Of a stretch of 44,913 nt of DNA, positions 9,022-43,021 are shown in pieces. The translations under genes were made by a program, and so were the position numbers. Origin of the DNA: an uncultured Bacteroidota bacterium (GTDB lineage: Bacteria > Bacteroidota > Bacteroidia > Chitinophagales > Chitinophagaceae); assembly GCA_903851465.1 (NCBI GenBank), contig CAINOI010000072.1:1-44913 (forward strand), given 5' to 3'. Within the stretch, counting starts at the first letter, position 1. Each line of letters starts with the position of its first letter. Below the pieces are notes generated by a model. The model did not search any database, was not told where the DNA came from, and saw nothing but the letters and a program-made list of their open reading frames with translations.

Positions 9022-10362
9022 TTGGCTACAAAGATTGTCATATTAGGGGCAGGAGAAAGCGGTGTTGGTACTGCCTTATTAGCTAAGCAACAAGGATATA
9101 ATGTATTTGTGTCCGATGCAAGTGCTATCAAACCAATCTATCAAGCAGAACTAGAAGCTAATGCTATTCCATTTGAATCTGGTTCGCATGATGTTGAAAG
9201 AATTTTGGCTGCAGACGAAGTGATGAAAAGTCCAGGCATCCCAGAGAAGAATGAATTGGTAAAAGCAATACGTGCAAAGGGGATTCCTGTTATTAGTGAA
9301 ATTGAATTTGGCTATAGGTATAAAGGCAATAGTAAAATTGTTGCAATTACAGGAAGTAATGGTAAAACAACAACAACCTCTTTATTATACCATATCTGCA
9401 AAGTGGCAGATCAAGATGTAGCCATTGTGGGTAATATTGGTTTCTCTTTTGCAAGACAAATTGCAGTTGACCCAAAAAAGTTGTATGTCATTGAAGTAAG
9501 TTCTTTCCAGTTAGATGACATCAAAAACTTTAGACCTGATATTGCGATTCTATTAAATATCACCGAAGATCATTTAGACAGATACAATTACCAATTTGAA
9601 TATTATATCAAAAGCAAGTTTAGAATTATTGAGAATCAGACAGAAAAAGACTGCTTTATTTATTGCATTGACGACGAGGTCATCTTAAAACAATTAGAAC
9701 TACTAACTACATATACTAACCTACTACCATTTTCTATGAAACAAGAATTAAAAAAAGGCGGCTACATCAAGAATGATCAAATGATGTTAAAAATCCAAGA
9801 AGAAAGAGTGACTATGAGTATTTATGATTTTGCTTTAAAAGGTAAACATAATGCTTACAACACCATGGCTGCTAGCATTGCTGCAAGCACTTTAGGAATC
9901 CGAAAAGAAAAAATTCGAGAAGCAGTAAGCAATTTCCACAGCTTAGAACATAGAATGGAATTTGTTGCTACTGTAAAAGGGGTAGATTTCATCAATGACA
10001 GTAAGGCAACCAATGTCAATAGTACTTGGTATGCTTTAGAAAGTATGCAAAAGCCTACTATTTTGATTCTAGGAGGTGTAGACAAAGGGAATGATTATGC
10101 TTTAGTAGCAGACTTGGTAAAAGAAAAAGTAAAAGCCATTGTTTGTATGGGTACAGATAATGCAAAATTAATTGAATTCTTTAAAGGCAAAGTAGATCAT
10201 ATTATTGAAGTTGATTCTGCAAAAAAAGCAGTAAATGCTTCTTTTAAATTAGCTGAAAAAGGAGATGTAGTGTTATTGAGTCCTGCTTGTGCAAGTTTTG
10301 ATTTATTTAAAAATTATGAAGACAGAGGACAACAATTTAAAGAAAGCGTAAAAGAATTATAA
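9022..10362 (+). CDS. murD: UDP-N-acetylmuramoyl-L-alanine--D-glutamate ligase
   Basis: 446 residues. MurD adds D-glutamate to UDP-MurNAc-L-Ala. The N-terminal Rossmann part begins with KIVILGAGESGVGTA, followed by the Mur ligase P-loop ITGSNGKTTTTSLL, the central NITEDHLDRY and EHRMEFV, and the C-terminal INDSKATN and LSPACASFD. The start is TTG at 9022, one base after the mraY stop. No ATG lies nearby upstream, and the TTG gives the expected N-terminus. It is followed after 2 bp by ftsW. Confidence 0.96.
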   Translation: MATKIVILGAGESGVGTALLAKQQGYNVFVSDASAIKPIYQAELEANAIPFESGSHDVERILAADEVMKSPGIPEKNELVKAIRAKGIPVISEIEFGYRYKGNSKIVAITGSNGKTTTTSLLYHICKVADQDVAIVGNIGFSFARQIAVDPKKLYVIEVSSFQLDDIKNFRPDIAILLNITEDHLDRYNYQFEYYIKSKFRIIENQTEKDCFIYCIDDEVILKQLELLTTYTNLLPFSMKQELKKGGYIKNDQMMLKIQEERVTMSIYDFALKGKHNAYNTMAASIAASTLGIRKEKIREAVSNFHSLEHRMEFVATVKGVDFINDSKATNVNSTWYALESMQKPTILILGGVDKGNDYALVADLVKEKVKAIVCMGTDNAKLIEFFKGKVDHIIEVDSAKKAVNASFKLAEKGDVVLLSPACASFDLFKNYEDRGQQFKESVKEL

Positions 10363-35661: not shown

Positions 35662-36555
35662 ATGTCAAAACATGCATTTGTATTCCCAGGACAAGGAAGT
35701 CAGTTTTCTGGAATGGGAAAAAATTTATACGAGTCCAATGAAGCAGCTAAAGCTTTATTCGAAAAAGCCAATGAAATAGTAGGCTTCCGCATTAGTGATA
35801 TTATGTTTGAGGGAACAGATGAGCAATTAAAACAAACCAATGTCACACAACCAGCAGTATTCATCCATTCGGTGATTGCCTATCTAACTATGGAACATGC
35901 AACACCAGATATGGTTGCAGGACATTCTCTTGGAGAATTTAGTGCACTCGTAGCCAATCAAACTTTAAGCTTTGAAGATGCATTGCGATTAGTAAGCATC
36001 CGTGCAAAAGCAATGCAAGCTGCATGTGAATTACAACCATCCACCATGGCAGCAGTATTGGCCTTAGCCGATGATAAAGTAGAGGCAATATGTACAACAG
36101 TAGCTGCTGAATCTGGTGAGGTTGTGGTGCCCGCAAATTATAATTGCCCTGGACAGTTAGTGATATCAGGATCTGTAAAAGGCATTGAAATTGCGTGCGA
36201 ACAAATGAAAGCAGCAGGTGCAAAACGTGCTTTGGTTTTACCTGTAGGAGGCGCCTTTCACTCACCACTTATGGAGCCAGCAAAAATTGAATTAGCAGCC
36301 GCAATTGAAGCAACTACATTCAACAATCCTATCTGCCCAGTATACCAAAATGTAACTGCATCAGCAGTGACTGATCCAGGACAAATCAAGCAAAACTTAA
36401 TCGCACAATTGACTGGTGCTGTAAAATGGACTCAATCAGTAGAAGCCATGGTAGCCGATGGTGCCACCAACTTTACAGAATTTGGCCCAGGTAAGGTTTT
36501 ACAAGGTTTGGTTCAAAAAGTATATAAGGAAGCCGTTGTGAATGGTATTGCGTAA
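35662..36555 (+). CDS. fabD: Malonyl-CoA-acyl carrier protein transacylase
   Basis: 297 residues from the ATG at 35662 (MSKHAFVFPGQGSQFSGMG). FabD loads malonyl groups onto acyl carrier protein for fatty-acid elongation. GQGSQ, the nucleophile elbow GHSLGEFSA (Ser), the catalytic His in GGAFHSPLM and FTEFGPGKVLQGL are all present. Length is normal. It is a single gene here, apart from other fatty-acid genes, with its own consensus promoter. Confidence 0.96.
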   Translation: MSKHAFVFPGQGSQFSGMGKNLYESNEAAKALFEKANEIVGFRISDIMFEGTDEQLKQTNVTQPAVFIHSVIAYLTMEHATPDMVAGHSLGEFSALVANQTLSFEDALRLVSIRAKAMQAACELQPSTMAAVLALADDKVEAICTTVAAESGEVVVPANYNCPGQLVISGSVKGIEIACEQMKAAGAKRALVLPVGGAFHSPLMEPAKIELAAAIEATTFNNPICPVYQNVTASAVTDPGQIKQNLIAQLTGAVKWTQSVEAMVADGATNFTEFGPGKVLQGLVQKVYKEAVVNGIA

Positions 36556-36647
36556 AATTTAGCTGCATATTAACATAGTATTATGCTTATTACAGAACGT
36601 ATTAATAGTTTTTTTACTAAGTATTTATACTAAATGTATTAATTTTA

Positions 36648-36678
36648 TAAGCCTAAAGGAATTTGCCTTAAGGGCTTT
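36648..36678 (+). other. Imperfect hairpin just upstream of the giant gene
   Basis: AAGCCTAAAGG (36649-36659) and CCTTAAGGGCTT (36666-36677) can pair imperfectly 19 bp before the GTG start. It could affect translation or be the end of an upstream transcript. The 141-bp gap after fabD is otherwise AT-rich with no consensus promoter seen. Confidence 0.25.
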
Positions 36679-36696
36679 AAAATCAATACATTCTTT

Positions 36697-39600
36697 GTGA
36701 AAATATTACTGAAAAGTATAAGCCTATTTGTTATTAGCATTTTGCTATGTAAAGTAGGATTTTCACAATCGGTCGTTTATGATATGCATACTTCGGCTCC
36801 AAATAATACGATTTGTAGAAATGAGCCTTTCATCTTGTACATGACTCCATCGCAAACAATCAGGTATGTATTTGAGTTTTCAACTGATGGGGGAGTTAGT
36901 TGGCAGCCTTACACAAATTTATCTTCTGATGTAGCTGCATTTAATGAAGTAGCTCAATCAATCACATTAGTCACCAGTACAAAATTTCGAGTATTTTATA
37001 CAACAAATACTTCTGTTGGATCTTCTCCTGATACCCGTGATCAAACAATTATAGATGTAACAGTAAATCAACTTCCAACTATTACGCCAATTATTTCTAC
37101 AACAAATATTGTTTGTCAAAATTCTAGTATTACTTATTCAGATGCAACTCCTTCAGGGGTTTGGACTAGTAGTAATAGTTCCATTGCAACAGTGGGTGCA
37201 TCAACTGGGATTGTAAGTGGTGTAAGCCAAGGAAATGCGGTGATAAAATATATAATCACCGATCCAACTACTGGATGTAAAAGTCAAGAAGCTAAACCAG
37301 TTACAGTTAATCCAACCCCAATCATTTCAAGTTATAATGATGTGGTTTGTAGTGGTGCTCCTTATTCTGTGGTGCCTTCTGGATTTGTGCCAACTGGAAC
37401 AACTTTTAATTGGGGCATGCCTACGAATAATGGAGCACAAGTAGGTGATTTAACAGGAATGGCTCCTGCGGGTACTTCGACACAACCTAATGTCAATGCT
37501 TTATTAACCAACCACACCAACGCTGTTCTTGCAGCAACCTATAGTATTACGGCAACAAAAGGGGCTTGTTCTAGTGTTCCTTTTAATTTAGTTTTATCAG
37601 TTACACCTAAGCCAATCATTAGTGACAGAACTGTGCAAGCCTGTAGTGGCGCAAATTTTACAGATGCCCCAACCAATGCAGGTGGCAATATTATTCCAAC
37701 TGGAATTACTTACTCTTGGGCTGCTCCTTCACCAATAACAAATGTAACTGGTTATGCTAGTGGCACGAATCAACTCAATTTTAACGGGAATTTAAACAAT
37801 AGCACAAATGCACCACTCACAGTGATCTATACAGTGAGCACTTCCAATGCAGGTTGCGCAGGAACAACTTACACCACCACAGTGCAAGTAAATCCTACAC
37901 CCAATATCGTTGCAAAATCTGCAATCATTTGTAGTAATGGTAGTTTTTCAATTCCTATCAATAATGGTTCAGATGTTGTACCTAGTAGCACAATTTATAC
38001 TTGGTCTGCCCCAAGTGTTGCAGGCATAAATGGATTACAATCGGGCGCCTCTCAATCAGTTGTATCTGGCACATTGTCTAATACCACAAATGCAACCATA
38101 TCAAATATTATTTACAATATCACACCCACCTCTGGAACCCCACAAACTGGATATTGTAGTGGACCTACATTTGTTGTAAATGTTACTGTACATCCTTTAC
38201 CTGTTATTGCTTCAGTTGGACCAACCCAAACAGGAAGTGGATCAAATTTTAATTTTCCAATAGGACAACCTTCTGATATAGTGCCAATAGGCACAACCTA
38301 TTTTTGGGGAAGCCCGTCTGTTCAATCTGGTATAACAGGCGGAGCTGCATCTGGTGTTGCTACTCAAACATCATTAGTAGGCACACTCACCAATTTAACA
38401 GGTACCTATTTGGATGCTATTTACACCATCATCCCTTCCTATTCCAATTGCCCAGGTAATCAATTTACTTTTACAGTAAGAGTTTATCCAAAACCAATTA
38501 TAGGTCCTAAATCAGCTACTATTTGTAGTGGACAAACTTTCAGCATTACCTTAACTGATGGAGCAAATGGGGATGTGATTCCGAATGGAACCACCTATAG
38601 TTGGAATGCGCCTATTGTTACGGGAATTGCTGGAACAATGAGTGCCACTGCTTCGGGAACAATTAGTGGCACATTAACCAATAGCACCAACAATCCAATT
38701 ACCGTTATTTATATTGTAACGCCTATTGCGAATCCACAATCTGGGGATCCATTTAATGTGTCCGTCATTGTAAATCCTTTACCAATTGCATCCATCTCCA
38801 TTAGTGAAAATTCTGGGTTAACTGCCAATGACCGAATTATTTGTAGTGATATCAATGCCATTTTTACAGCAGTTCCAGTTGTTGGTAATTTAATTGATTA
38901 TAGTTATGCATGGACTGTCCCAGCAGGCACCACCCCTCCAGGTAATGTATCTAGTTTTGGAAGCAATATTGCAGGAACTTATGGGCTTCAATTAACCAAT
39001 ATCAATACTGGTTGTACGAGTGCTGCTCAAACCACAACAAGTTTATTCGTAAACCCAATTCCAACAGTGGGTCCAATCATTGGAGTCAATGAAGTTTGCG
39101 TGAATAGTACTATATCGCTTTCATCCTCTAATGTGTCTGGCGGTTCAGGCATCTATAATTTTTATTATTGGTATGATAACAATAATTTAGTTGCAGCGCC
39201 ATTTACAGGTCCTGGGGTAAATGTGACAGGGGCTACTGCTGGAAATGCATTATTAACTTATAAAGTACGAGACGATTTGGGTTGTTTTTCGGCAATGAGT
39301 AGTCCTGTATTTGTATTGCGTATTAATGCATTACCATTAGCCCCAACTGCTGTTTCAATTAATCAAATTTATGATGGATTGTTGCACACAGGATCTGCCA
39401 TCGCGAATAATCCTGCGGCAGAACAAATCAATTGGTTTTTAAATAGTACAGGTGCTACCAGCGGCAACCCTCCAAGTGCAACCAATGTAGGACCGACTAG
39501 CACAAGTTATGCTAGCGCTCGTAATACTACAACCGGCTGTATCAGTGCCACAAGAACAGCTGTATCTGTTACGATTATTCAAAAAGGGTTAATCATAACA

Positions 39601-42015
39601 GCAAATGATTTTACAAAAACATATGATCGAATTGCTTATACAGGAGGGAATGGCGTTAGATATGATGGCTTTGTGAACAATGAGACGGCTTCTGTCCTTA
39701 ATGGAACTTTATCCTATATAGGTAGTTCACAAAATGCGATCAATGCAGGGACCTACCTTATTCAGCCGAGTGGATTAAGTGCGAATAATTACGCAGTTAG
39801 TTTGGTAGCAGGGAATTTAGTAATCAATCTTAAGGGCTTAACCATTGCAGGTGCCGCTGTGCAAGATAAAATTTATGATGCAACAGATAGAGCAAATTTA
39901 TTTGCTGGTACATTAGTCGGTGTGATTGCTGCAGATATTCCTAATATACAATTAAATAGATCCGCAAAATTTTCATCTAAAAATGTCGGTGCCAATTTAA
40001 TAATTACTTCTACTAGTACCATTACAGGAGCTGCAGCACCTAATTATGTATTGGATCCTACCATCAATGTTACAGCAACTATTACCCCAAAACGAATTGA
40101 GGCTATTGGGGTGGTCACTGCTAATAAAATTTATGATGGCACAGTAGTAGCAACTGTCACGGGAGGTGGATTCAATACGCCTATTGCACCTGGCACAGGG
40201 AATAGCAATGATAAACTACCTTATATAGCAGATCAAATTCAATTGATTCCATCTGGTAATTTTATAAATAAGGATGTAGGTAATGCTATTTCAATTATTT
40301 CTACTTCATCTATTTTAGGTTTGGATAAAAATAATTATATATTAGATCAGCCTAATTTAACTCCACGAAATATTACTGCAAAAACATTGACCATGTTTGG
40401 TTTATCGGTCACTGCTCCAAAAATTTATGACGCAACCCAAACTGCAGTTGTATCAGGAACACCTAGTCTAGGGGTAAGTGAAACACCAGGAACTGGTAAT
40501 GTATTAGATGGATTACCTTATAACAATGATATCGTATCCATTATTGGTAATGCCGTTGGAACATATAATACAAAAGATGTTCCAACCGCTAATAAAGTAA
40601 CTTTTAGTGGATTAAGTTTATCGGGGCTTAATGCAAACAATTATGTGCTTGCTATTCAACCCGCTGTGGCTTCTTCTATCTTGCCAAAAAAATTGAACAT
40701 GTTTGGATTAAACATTCCAAGCTCTAAAATTTATGATGGTAATACCAATGCAATAGTCTCAGGCGCTCCAAGTTTATTTGCTCCAGAAAATAGTGGACAA
40801 GGAAATGTCAGCGATGGTATTCCTTATATTGGAGATGATGTATCTATTACTGGATCGCCAATTGGTAATTATAATTCGAGTCAAGTATTGACTGCCACTG
40901 ATGTTAAATTTAGTGGACTATCATTGACCGGAAATCAATCAAGTAATTATAATTTAATTATTCAAGAAAATAAAGCTGCTACTATAACTCCTTTGGCGAT
41001 TCAAGTTACAGCCACAGCAAAAACAAAAACTTTTGGAGATATAGATCCAGTATTCACTTATACCAATGATCCACTCATTGGGAATGATTTATTTTCAGGT
41101 AGCTTAACCAGAACTGCAGGAGAGGAGGTAGGTTTGTATCCAATTTTAATTGGAAGTCTAACATTAGGACCTAATTATACGATTCTATATACTTCTAATA
41201 CATTAAAAATCCTAGCTTCTAATTTAATCATCAAGCCCAATCCAATTATAAGGACCTATGGCGATGCACCTTTGCCTACAACTTTAATAACTTCTAATTT
41301 TCAGGTAGTCGGACTAAGAAATAACGAAACAATTAAGACCGTAACACTCACATTGCCATCTGGTATAGAAACTGGTAATGGCTTTAAGGATCCAGTTGGA
41401 ATTTATAGGAATGTGATTGAAACGAGTAATCTAGTAACAGGTACTGCTATATTGTCTAATTATAATATTGTTTTATTACCAGCAGATATCGAAGTGATTC
41501 AATATGCTATTGTTATTAAAGCAGAGCCTAAGCAAAAAAGAAAAACCCAAATTGATCCAACATTAACTTATTTAATCTCAAGACCACTTATCCAAGGAGA
41601 CAATATAAAAGGAAGTCTAGTAAGGGTTCCAGGAGAAGAGGTTGGATTTTATGCCATCAACATTGGAACGCTTGAAATCAATGACAACTATGCAATTACT
41701 TACGAATCAGATTTCTTGGAAATATTGACAATCGAAAGAGTGATAGTGGTGCCTAATGTGTTTACGCCAAATAATGATGGATTAAATGATCAATTAAAAG
41801 TAATTCATAATTCAACTGTTGTTGGTCTGAATTATTTTAAAGTGTTTAATCGTGCTGGTAATCAAGTTTTTGAGACTAGGGATATCAATCAAGGATGGGA
41901 TGGAAGGGTTGGAGGAAATATAGGAGATGCGGATGCTTATTATTGGATTTTAGAATATATAACATGGGATAATAAATCATTTAAATTAAATGGGAGTGCA
42001 CTGTTAATTAAATAA
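36697..42015 (+). CDS. Giant secreted Ig/PKD/MBG-repeat protein with type IX C-terminal domain
   Basis: 1772 residues. GTG at 36697 is the start because it opens a clear signal peptide (KILLKSISLFVISILLCKVGFSQ). Domains in order: an N-terminal Ig-like region (~30-130); a BIG_2-like unit (~120-205, GVWTSSNSSIATVGASTGIVSG); five PKD-like repeats of ~100 residues (about 205-693), each with a Cys-Ser/Gly start and a TYxW core; further Ig units (~693-960); an MBG unit (~963); four YDG-type repeats marked KIYDAT/KIYDGT (at 1058, 1144, 1242, 1344); and three MBG_2-like units (~1435, ~1511, ~1604). A CHU_C/gliding-motility C-terminal domain (from ~1683, VPNVFTPNNDGLNDQ) is the sorting signal for type IX secretion. 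It is probably a cell-surface adhesin or matrix protein. The PorP-like gene follows directly. Confidence 0.9.
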   Translation: MKILLKSISLFVISILLCKVGFSQSVVYDMHTSAPNNTICRNEPFILYMTPSQTIRYVFEFSTDGGVSWQPYTNLSSDVAAFNEVAQSITLVTSTKFRVFYTTNTSVGSSPDTRDQTIIDVTVNQLPTITPIISTTNIVCQNSSITYSDATPSGVWTSSNSSIATVGASTGIVSGVSQGNAVIKYIITDPTTGCKSQEAKPVTVNPTPIISSYNDVVCSGAPYSVVPSGFVPTGTTFNWGMPTNNGAQVGDLTGMAPAGTSTQPNVNALLTNHTNAVLAATYSITATKGACSSVPFNLVLSVTPKPIISDRTVQACSGANFTDAPTNAGGNIIPTGITYSWAAPSPITNVTGYASGTNQLNFNGNLNNSTNAPLTVIYTVSTSNAGCAGTTYTTTVQVNPTPNIVAKSAIICSNGSFSIPINNGSDVVPSSTIYTWSAPSVAGINGLQSGASQSVVSGTLSNTTNATISNIIYNITPTSGTPQTGYCSGPTFVVNVTVHPLPVIASVGPTQTGSGSNFNFPIGQPSDIVPIGTTYFWGSPSVQSGITGGAASGVATQTSLVGTLTNLTGTYLDAIYTIIPSYSNCPGNQFTFTVRVYPKPIIGPKSATICSGQTFSITLTDGANGDVIPNGTTYSWNAPIVTGIAGTMSATASGTISGTLTNSTNNPITVIYIVTPIANPQSGDPFNVSVIVNPLPIASISISENSGLTANDRIICSDINAIFTAVPVVGNLIDYSYAWTVPAGTTPPGNVSSFGSNIAGTYGLQLTNINTGCTSAAQTTTSLFVNPIPTVGPIIGVNEVCVNSTISLSSSNVSGGSGIYNFYYWYDNNNLVAAPFTGPGVNVTGATAGNALLTYKVRDDLGCFSAMSSPVFVLRINALPLAPTAVSINQIYDGLLHTGSAIANNPAAEQINWFLNSTGATSGNPPSATNVGPTSTSYASARNTTTGCISATRTAVSVTIIQKGLIITANDFTKTYDRIAYTGGNGVRYDGFVNNETASVLNGTLSYIGSSQNAINAGTYLIQPSGLSANNYAVSLVAGNLVINLKGLTIAGAAVQDKIYDATDRANLFAGTLVGVIAADIPNIQLNRSAKFSSKNVGANLIITSTSTITGAAAPNYVLDPTINVTATITPKRIEAIGVVTANKIYDGTVVATVTGGGFNTPIAPGTGNSNDKLPYIADQIQLIPSGNFINKDVGNAISIISTSSILGLDKNNYILDQPNLTPRNITAKTLTMFGLSVTAPKIYDATQTAVVSGTPSLGVSETPGTGNVLDGLPYNNDIVSIIGNAVGTYNTKDVPTANKVTFSGLSLSGLNANNYVLAIQPAVASSILPKKLNMFGLNIPSSKIYDGNTNAIVSGAPSLFAPENSGQGNVSDGIPYIGDDVSITGSPIGNYNSSQVLTATDVKFSGLSLTGNQSSNYNLIIQENKAATITPLAIQVTATAKTKTFGDIDPVFTYTNDPLIGNDLFSGSLTRTAGEEVGLYPILIGSLTLGPNYTILYTSNTLKILASNLIIKPNPIIRTYGDAPLPTTLITSNFQVVGLRNNETIKTVTLTLPSGIETGNGFKDPVGIYRNVIETSNLVTGTAILSNYNIVLLPADIEVIQYAIVIKAEPKQKRKTQIDPTLTYLISRPLIQGDNIKGSLVRVPGEEVGFYAINIGTLEINDNYAITYESDFLEILTIERVIVVPNVFTPNNDGLNDQLKVIHNSTVVGLNYFKVFNRAGNQVFETRDINQGWDGRVGGNIGDADAYYWILEYITWDNKSFKLNGSALLIK

Positions 42016-42016
42016 T

Positions 42017-43021
42017 ATTCTGAAAAATAAATTATACATATCATGCGTATTTTTGTTGTTTACAAGTTTTGTAAATGCACAGGATATTGTATTGTCTCAG
42101 CCTTTTATGTCAGGTCAATTTTTAAGTCCTGCATCTGTCGGGAATGGCTTATACAAGCGAAGAATAAAAGGCAATTTGAAAGCACAAATGATAGATGGAA
42201 ATAATTTGTATCAAACTATGGTAGTTGGTATGGATACCCGATTTAAAAGTGCAGACGAAAATAGCAAGAATTATTTAGGCATTGGTGGTCAAATTATATC
42301 AGATCAAGTAAAGAACGGGCTGATGCAAAGTAATTATATAGGGCTTAATTTAGCCTATCATATTTTTATTGATAAAGATTTATACAAAGACATTGCTTTG
42401 GGTTTTGGGACTGTTTATGCTCAAACGACATTGGATAAGTCAAAGTTATTTTTTGGAGACCAGTATGACTATGCGGGTGGTCTTACATCCAATGCTACGA
42501 TGGAAAATTTACCTCCTTATCCATCTGAGTTTTCAGCGATTGCTGGTTTATTGTATACCCAACACAACGAAACTATTTTTATCCAAACAGGCGGAACCGC
42601 CTCCTTTTTTTCAAAGCCTAATATAACCTATTCCATCACAAATAGTGCCCCTGAATATAGCTATAGATTTTTTACAAATATGGAACTTCCTTTTTTGAAT
42701 GACTATTCAATTGCATTGCATGGCAATATGCTCTATAAGAAAGTAAAGAATCAATATTTTTTGGGAGGAACAATTGGGGCTCCAATTTCTAGTGATGAAG
42801 AAAATTTGAAGCGAATTTATGTTGGTTGTTTTTATAGGTACAAAGAAGCTGTCGTGCCAACCATTTCATTCATTTCTAATCAATATATTTTTGGAATGAG
42901 TTATGATATTTATAATCCAAAAAACAATGGAGCCAATTTAAGAATGAGCAGTATTGAATTGACCCTATCTGCCTCCTTTGGCGGGAAAAAGACCAATTTG
43001 TTTAGAACCATTTTTGATTAA
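42017..43021 (+). CDS. PorP/SprF-like type IX secretion outer-membrane protein, non-canonical start
   Basis: About 334 residues. The mature part has the PorP/SprF look: QDIVLSQPFMSGQFLSPASVGNG, repeated amphipathic beta strands, YLGIGGQIISDQVKNG, and a C-terminal FGMSYDIYNPKNN. Proteins of this family often follow giant T9SS substrates and may help retain them on the surface. The only standard-type start (TTG, 42053) would cut a signal peptide in half. In frame upstream, codons from ATT (42017) or CTG (42020) encode LKNKLYISCVFLLFTSF, a complete signal peptide, with the frame blocked by a stop at 42005. I therefore start it at 42017; this start is inferred, not certain. It is 1 bp after the stop of the giant gene. 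Confidence 0.8.
   Translation: MLKNKLYISCVFLLFTSFVNAQDIVLSQPFMSGQFLSPASVGNGLYKRRIKGNLKAQMIDGNNLYQTMVVGMDTRFKSADENSKNYLGIGGQIISDQVKNGLMQSNYIGLNLAYHIFIDKDLYKDIALGFGTVYAQTTLDKSKLFFGDQYDYAGGLTSNATMENLPPYPSEFSAIAGLLYTQHNETIFIQTGGTASFFSKPNITYSITNSAPEYSYRFFTNMELPFLNDYSIALHGNMLYKKVKNQYFLGGTIGAPISSDEENLKRIYVGCFYRYKEAVVPTISFISNQYIFGMSYDIYNPKNNGANLRMSSIELTLSASFGGKKTNLFRTIFD

Follow-up and report, generated by a model that had tools for sequence, protein, structure and literature searches.

In Flavobacterium johnsoniae, SprB-SprF and other pairs consist of a gene for a giant protein with a type B C-terminal domain (CTD) followed by a gene of the PorP/SprF family (as described in PMC12618676 and PMC9143113). 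According to the former source, SprF-like shuttles are cognate to type B substrates and commonly encoded directly downstream of them, and the endogenous shuttle is hypothesised to limit secretion; the latter reports SprB with SprF bound. A similar pair occurs in the stretch of DNA analysed here (hereafter the window), that is, the 44,913 nucleotides (nt) of contig CAINOI010000072.1 from the draft genome of an uncultured Chitinophagaceae bacterium (GCA_903851465.1; 75 contigs, 91.5% complete), where a PorP-like gene lies directly downstream of a giant type B CTD gene, the family search behind this statement covering the window only. By analogy with the F. johnsoniae pairs, the two proteins are likely partners in secretion or anchoring. 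Unlike those pairs as described, both genes mostly avoid ATG here, and the shuttle gene starts with TTG or CTG. The term “start codon” is absent from the main texts of both papers, and a literature search on SprF/PorP genes with non-canonical starts gave no start-codon terms among the matches listed. What is known, then, is a type B substrate with its PorP/SprF shuttle, closely spaced genes and near-cognate starts; what appears new is a probable CTG start that evolved twice and a non-ATG pair across the genomes carrying it.

The initial annotation had claimed that the PorP-like gene lacks a normal start codon before its signal peptide, and this was borne out. After the TAA that closes it upstream, the frame encoding LKNKLYISCVFLLFTSFVNAQD... 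runs TTA AAT AAT ATT (42017) CTG (42020) AAA AAT AAA TTA TAC ATA (42038), with no ATG, GTG or TTG between that stop and the signal peptide; the first usual-type start is TTG 42053, upstream of which ATT 42017, CTG 42020 and ATA 42038 are the sole near-cognate codons. The frame is unbroken to the TAA at 43019-43021, and the missing usual start is real, not a reading artefact. The features of the locus are collected in Table 1.

Table 1. Features of the giant gene/PorP-like gene locus, in window coordinates.
Feature	Position	Strand	Basis
Putative PorP/SprF-like outer-membrane shuttle gene, 333 amino acids	42020..43021	+	read from CTG; TIGR03519 match, orthologs
CTG, putative start codon	42020..42022	+	ortholog start column TTG 39/45, CTG 4/45, ATG 2/45
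Predicted signal peptide LKNKLYISCVFLLFTSFVNA	42020..42079	+	translation; cleavage before Q judged by eye
TAA closing the PorP-like frame upstream	42005..42007	+	
Giant-gene stop TAA, 4 nt before CTG	42013..42015	+	
ATA codon, rival start	42038..42040	+	ATA at aligned column in 39/45 copies
Giant type IX secretion system (T9SS) substrate gene (predicted), 1772 amino acids, GTG start	36697..42015	+	repeats of PKD_5, YDG and MBG_2 type; C-terminal type B sorting domain
Conserved leader block TATACTAATTNTAGTAATTTTA, 2 mismatches in window	36626..36647	+	at locus in 7 genomes supplying pattern
Leader hairpin, ending 20 nt upstream of the GTG start of the giant gene	36650..36676	+	inverted repeat; fold energy

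A search of 147 genomes of the genus (E-value <= 1e-60) revealed 46 orthologous copies in 44 genomes, and the start column was read in 45 of them, from 43 genomes, the G099 copy being left out as a contig end cuts its 5' part. At this column TTG is present in 39 copies, CTG in four (the window, G132, G167 and G168) and ATG in two (G139 and the second G165 copy); seven of these rows were placed by hand, namely the two ATG rows and five that the alignment had shifted by one or two codons, among which are the CTG rows of G132, G167 and G168, and the copies are related, some of them near-identical, so that the counts are not independent trials. TTA never occurs at the column in the 45 copies. Since the 43 non-ATG copies all carry TTG or CTG, despite TTA being the commonest leucine codon in the same genes (TTG plus CTG account for 399 of 1376, or 29%), the column acts, on the evidence of the alignment, as a start codon and not as a leucine codon. 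None of the four CTG copies has a further in-frame ATG, GTG, TTG or CTG upstream, and G025 has, in addition to TTG at the column, an ATG two codons 5' of it. Two genomes carry two copies each, on separate contigs, both with TTG in G005 and one with TTG and one with ATG in G165. The upstream context of the 45 copies is A-rich, with A at -3 in 28 (window included) and at -6 in 35; A at -3 is given as a positive determinant in F. johnsoniae in PMC6847099, which also describes members of the phylum as naturally devoid of Shine-Dalgarno sequences.

A maximum-likelihood tree built from these 45 copies plus six paralogs requires two origins of CTG, both forced by well-supported branches, one in the lineage of the window and the other in the separate clade formed by G132, G167 and G168. 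The five orthologs that best match the window protein (G157, G034, G015, G025 and the first G005 copy) all have TTG. Because the relatives mostly have TTG at this column and CTG arose twice, the start of the PorP-like gene is most likely CTG 42020, derived by comparison of the aligned copies from TTG rather than from a lost ATG, and not ATT. Of the two codons proposed in the initial annotation, CTG thus gained support, while ATT, found as the preceding codon in only 7 of the 45 copies, did not; in the same way, the single-base change that it traced to a former ATG should instead be read as TTG to CTG, TTG being the codon of the clade. No close relative among those read carries ATG at 42017, and the two ATG copies (G165, G139) are distant and have it at the CTG column.

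The behaviour of this column can be compared with that of a second PorP-like paralog (C33 type), found in 40 of the 147 genomes (E-value <= 1e-60). In the 30 best-scoring copies from these 40 genomes, to which the reading was confined, ATG is without exception the first in-frame NTG (30 of 30), and 22 genomes are common to the ortholog and paralog sets that were read. PMC5622118 lists, among 2,468 ancestral UUG starts, 43 changes to AUG, 35 to GUG and one to CUG. Like the rare CUG and AUU bacterial starts treated in that survey and in PMC11497404, the present case involves a near-cognate codon and a TTG-to-CTG switch; unlike the survey as reported, with its single CUG switch per 2,468 ancestral UUG, it shows two CTG origins in one gene family. 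Setting the two CTG and two ATG origins found here against the published UUG switches (PMC5622118) gives p = 0.005 in Fisher's test, a rough figure given that our tree is much deeper than the triplets of close genomes used in the survey.

As for the way in which such a codon might be used, the distance between the giant-gene stop and the PorP-like start is 4 nt in the window, 1-17 nt in all 45 copies and at most 10 nt in 34 of them, the upstream open frame being taken in the relatives as the giant gene by its position and, outside the window in general, by similar C-terminal ends rather than by a family search. Since the start lies 4 nt past the giant TAA and within 1-17 nt of it in the relatives, the arrangement suggests, from spacing, a coupled re-initiation of the PorP-like gene behind the giant gene. 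We consider it probable that the T-to-C change turned the ordinary TTG start of the clade into CTG, that initiator fMet-tRNA would read CTG 42020, and that ribosomes ending the giant gene at TAA 42013-42015 would re-initiate 4 nt downstream, the shuttle being thus produced in proportion to its substrate. A lone CTG start would be very weak, and coupling would explain its tolerance: coupled ribosomes would arrive beside the start, and the weak codon might even be favoured, as it would block independent initiation. Coupled synthesis also makes sense if SprF-like shuttles are cognate and the shuttle possibly limits secretion. Of the proposal, made in the initial annotation, that the start is coupled to the giant stop, the closeness is thus observed and general, and the coupling itself may be surmised from it.

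Phage fr offers a parallel. The UUG start of its lysis gene makes that gene dependent on termination in the coat gene. Both cases combine a weak start codon with a nearby upstream stop; the phage gene differs in overlapping the coat gene, and there is no homology. The coat-lysis coupling of phage fr is among the examples given in PMC12548453, together with galT/galK and rplK/rplA, coupled pairs spaced by +3 nt. The present locus resembles the termination-reinitiation pairs described there and in PMC10666635 in having two co-directed genes, 1-17 nt apart, with products expected to act together, +3 nt being a spacing found among classic cases; it is unlike those coupled pairs, in which, as these sources present them, -4 and -1 nt overlaps are the most frequent layouts, in that the gaps are all positive and the downstream start is weak. 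If the weak start does enforce obligate coupling, this would be a simple bacterial way of keeping an outer-membrane shuttle in step with a very large substrate. On the practical side, gene finders limited to ATG, GTG and TTG would place the start at 42053, with the loss of most of the signal peptide, or miss the gene.

Several points weigh against CTG initiation by coupling. None of the 45 copies shows an overlap, and in 11 the gap (11-17 nt) falls in the uncertain zone of PMC10666635, according to which a spacing of -8 to +10 nt is predictive of termination-reinitiation and one of +11 to +20 nt is variable; the same source concludes that short overlaps are needed for coupling and that post-termination scanning is rare. 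In PMC11497404, which quotes earlier work, UUG has 29.8% and CUG 0.86% of the efficiency of AUG, and CUG makes up 0.024% of bacterial starts; on these figures CUG stands about 35-fold below UUG, and very little of the protein might be produced from this start. In addition, the start-codon background, which counts in favour of this reading, is biased toward ATG. When 0.30 Mb sampled from the genome of the window was compared with 1.46 Mb of G034, 125 reciprocal-best pairs of open reading frames resulted, of which the 84 with a common start column comprised 77 ATG/ATG, 4 TTG/TTG and 3 mixed pairs; the script favours ATG columns, the frames are uncurated and some antisense, and 41 of the 125 pairs, the giant and PorP-like pairs among these, are missing as unscored. 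A kept TTG is not unique to the pair, the gene at window position 9022 having TTG both in the window's genome (G000) and in G034. Finally, the window may contain a single-base assembly error, which would affect neither CTG in the other three genomes nor the TTG start.

Such an error is the alternative that survives best, and we regard it as unlikely. In that case the C at 42020 would be a consensus error of a fragmented draft assembly and the true codon TTG, as in the five best-matching orthologs; the nearest protein among the 147 genomes is only 65% identical, so that no conspecific copy is among them. CTG is nevertheless present also in three genomes of another clade, and is thus tolerated at this column, and the frame is otherwise unbroken.

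Initiation at ATT 42017 or ATA 42038 has a still smaller chance of being correct. The codon preceding the start is variable, as already mentioned. In favour of ATA, 39 of the 45 copies keep this minority isoleucine codon at its column, near the seventh codon of the gene, as against a share of 240 among the 884 isoleucine codons in the same genes. A start at ATA would, however, deprive the signal peptide of its positively charged head and leave the NTG upstream in 45 of 45 copies unexplained, and ATA is frequent early in the ATG-started paralogs too (41 of 69 early isoleucine codons); in background genes it makes up 26 of 103 early isoleucine codons in G000 and 35 of 104 in G034. The conserved ATA is more likely an early-coding-region constraint than a start.

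It is also quite improbable that the PorP-like gene is on its way to decay through loss of its start. Loss of the pair does occur, as in G014 (L070; L032 is apparently the same contig), which keeps only the last 45-54 PorP codons after fabD; against decay, the giant and PorP-like genes are both intact in the window, the PorP-like protein retains 64-65% identity to its four nearest orthologs over 97-100% of its length, and no internal stops interrupt the CTG copies in G132, G167 and G168. Even less credit can be given to the remaining two possibilities. A frameshift fusion with the giant gene, needing no start, would fit the few bases shared by the PorP-like frame (open from 42008) and the giant frame (stop 42013), but the signal peptide follows directly and, with gaps of 1-17 nt, the frame relation differs among the relatives. 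TTG 42053, in spite of being the first usual-type start in frame, would leave nine signal-peptide residues without the positive head, while the relatives retain NTG eleven codons upstream. Weighed against the ortholog alignment, the ATT, ATA and TTG 42053 starts, the lost ATG, the fusion and decay were all set aside.

The remnant in L032 (6557-6691; also L070), directly after fabD, appears as the relic of a deleted giant-PorP pair. In a scan of contigs, one of 33 candidate loci was confirmed, on the contig with this 3' PorP remnant; in G018:C140 the last 45-54 PorP codons are matched at the contig end, which may be merely a cut copy.

The assignment to the PorP/SprF family rests on profiles and orthologs that agree in part. 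The window protein matches TIGR03519 with an E-value of 1.3e-23 and 83.9 bits, below the cut-off of 90.55, and has no Pfam match at E-value <= 0.05, PF11751 included, nor any match in a PDB sequence search at E-value <= 0.1. Among five orthologs, TIGR03519 is matched above the cut-off by L004 and L033, both of which belong to the four nearest to the window protein, below it by L007 and L010, and not by L011; PF11751 is matched above its cut-off by L004, L007 and L010 (46-64% identical to the window protein) and not by L033 or L011.

The C-terminal sorting domain of the giant protein is recognised by TIGR04131 (39.9 bits, cut-off 35) and CHU_C (50.4, cut-off 27). The initial annotation had the giant gene start with GTG, which is found at 36697, and suggested that the pair may be held at low translation. 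Twelve complete giant genes were read (window, G015, G025, G034, G157, G167, G150, G159, G110, G083, G139 and G161), the remaining copies being cut by contig ends, broken or unread; with starts assigned by eye, the apparent codon is GTG in four and TTG in eight, and none of the 12 has an in-frame ATG up to and including the positive head of the signal peptide. In five (G025, G167, G110, G083 and G139) an ATG lies deeper in the hydrophobic part and would leave a signal-peptide stub. The avoidance of ATG by 43 of 45 PorP-like and 12 of 12 complete giant copies is indirect support for that suggestion, and output might indeed be low. It is possible, if rather doubtful, that both genes are on deliberately weak starts. 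The conserved leader with its hairpin and GTG/TTG would then meter the giant gene, and the TTG/CTG start, open only to ribosomes coming from the giant stop, would tie the shuttle strictly to its substrate and in proportion to it; CTG, which hardly supports free initiation, would be an extreme form of such obligate coupling evolved at least two times. In L038/L173 (G076), only 226 codons of the giant frame adjoining the PorP-like gene are open above its stop, preceded by 1169 open codons in another frame of this strand, which points to a broken frame or an assembly error.

At the junction itself (41980-42070) a hairpin is unsupported, this segment folding worse than its shuffles (z 1.84). In seven relatives, the region separating fabD from the giant gene contains the block TATACTAATTNTAGTAATTTTA and then an inverted repeat, the repeat ending roughly 14-20 nt 5' of the start; block and hairpin were seen at window 36626-36676, L087, L088, L089, L090, L169 and L180. 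When up to three mismatches were allowed, the block was found with 0-2 mismatches at the locus in the seven source genomes and at three further places with 3 mismatches, and the reversed-pattern control gave 12 matches in the same genomes (mismatch numbers not broken down). No Rfam match was obtained in 36400-36800 at E-value <= 1. The hairpin predicted for the window is weak (z -0.86; -9 kcal/mol) and that of G015 strong (z -6.29; -25.4 kcal/mol), and covariation lends the structure little support, both partners having changed in 2 of its 20 predicted pairs (covariation term -0.02). The repeat may form a leader structure or may mark where the upstream transcript ends; G110 and G161 have instead, by eye, a terminator-like repeat followed by T's.

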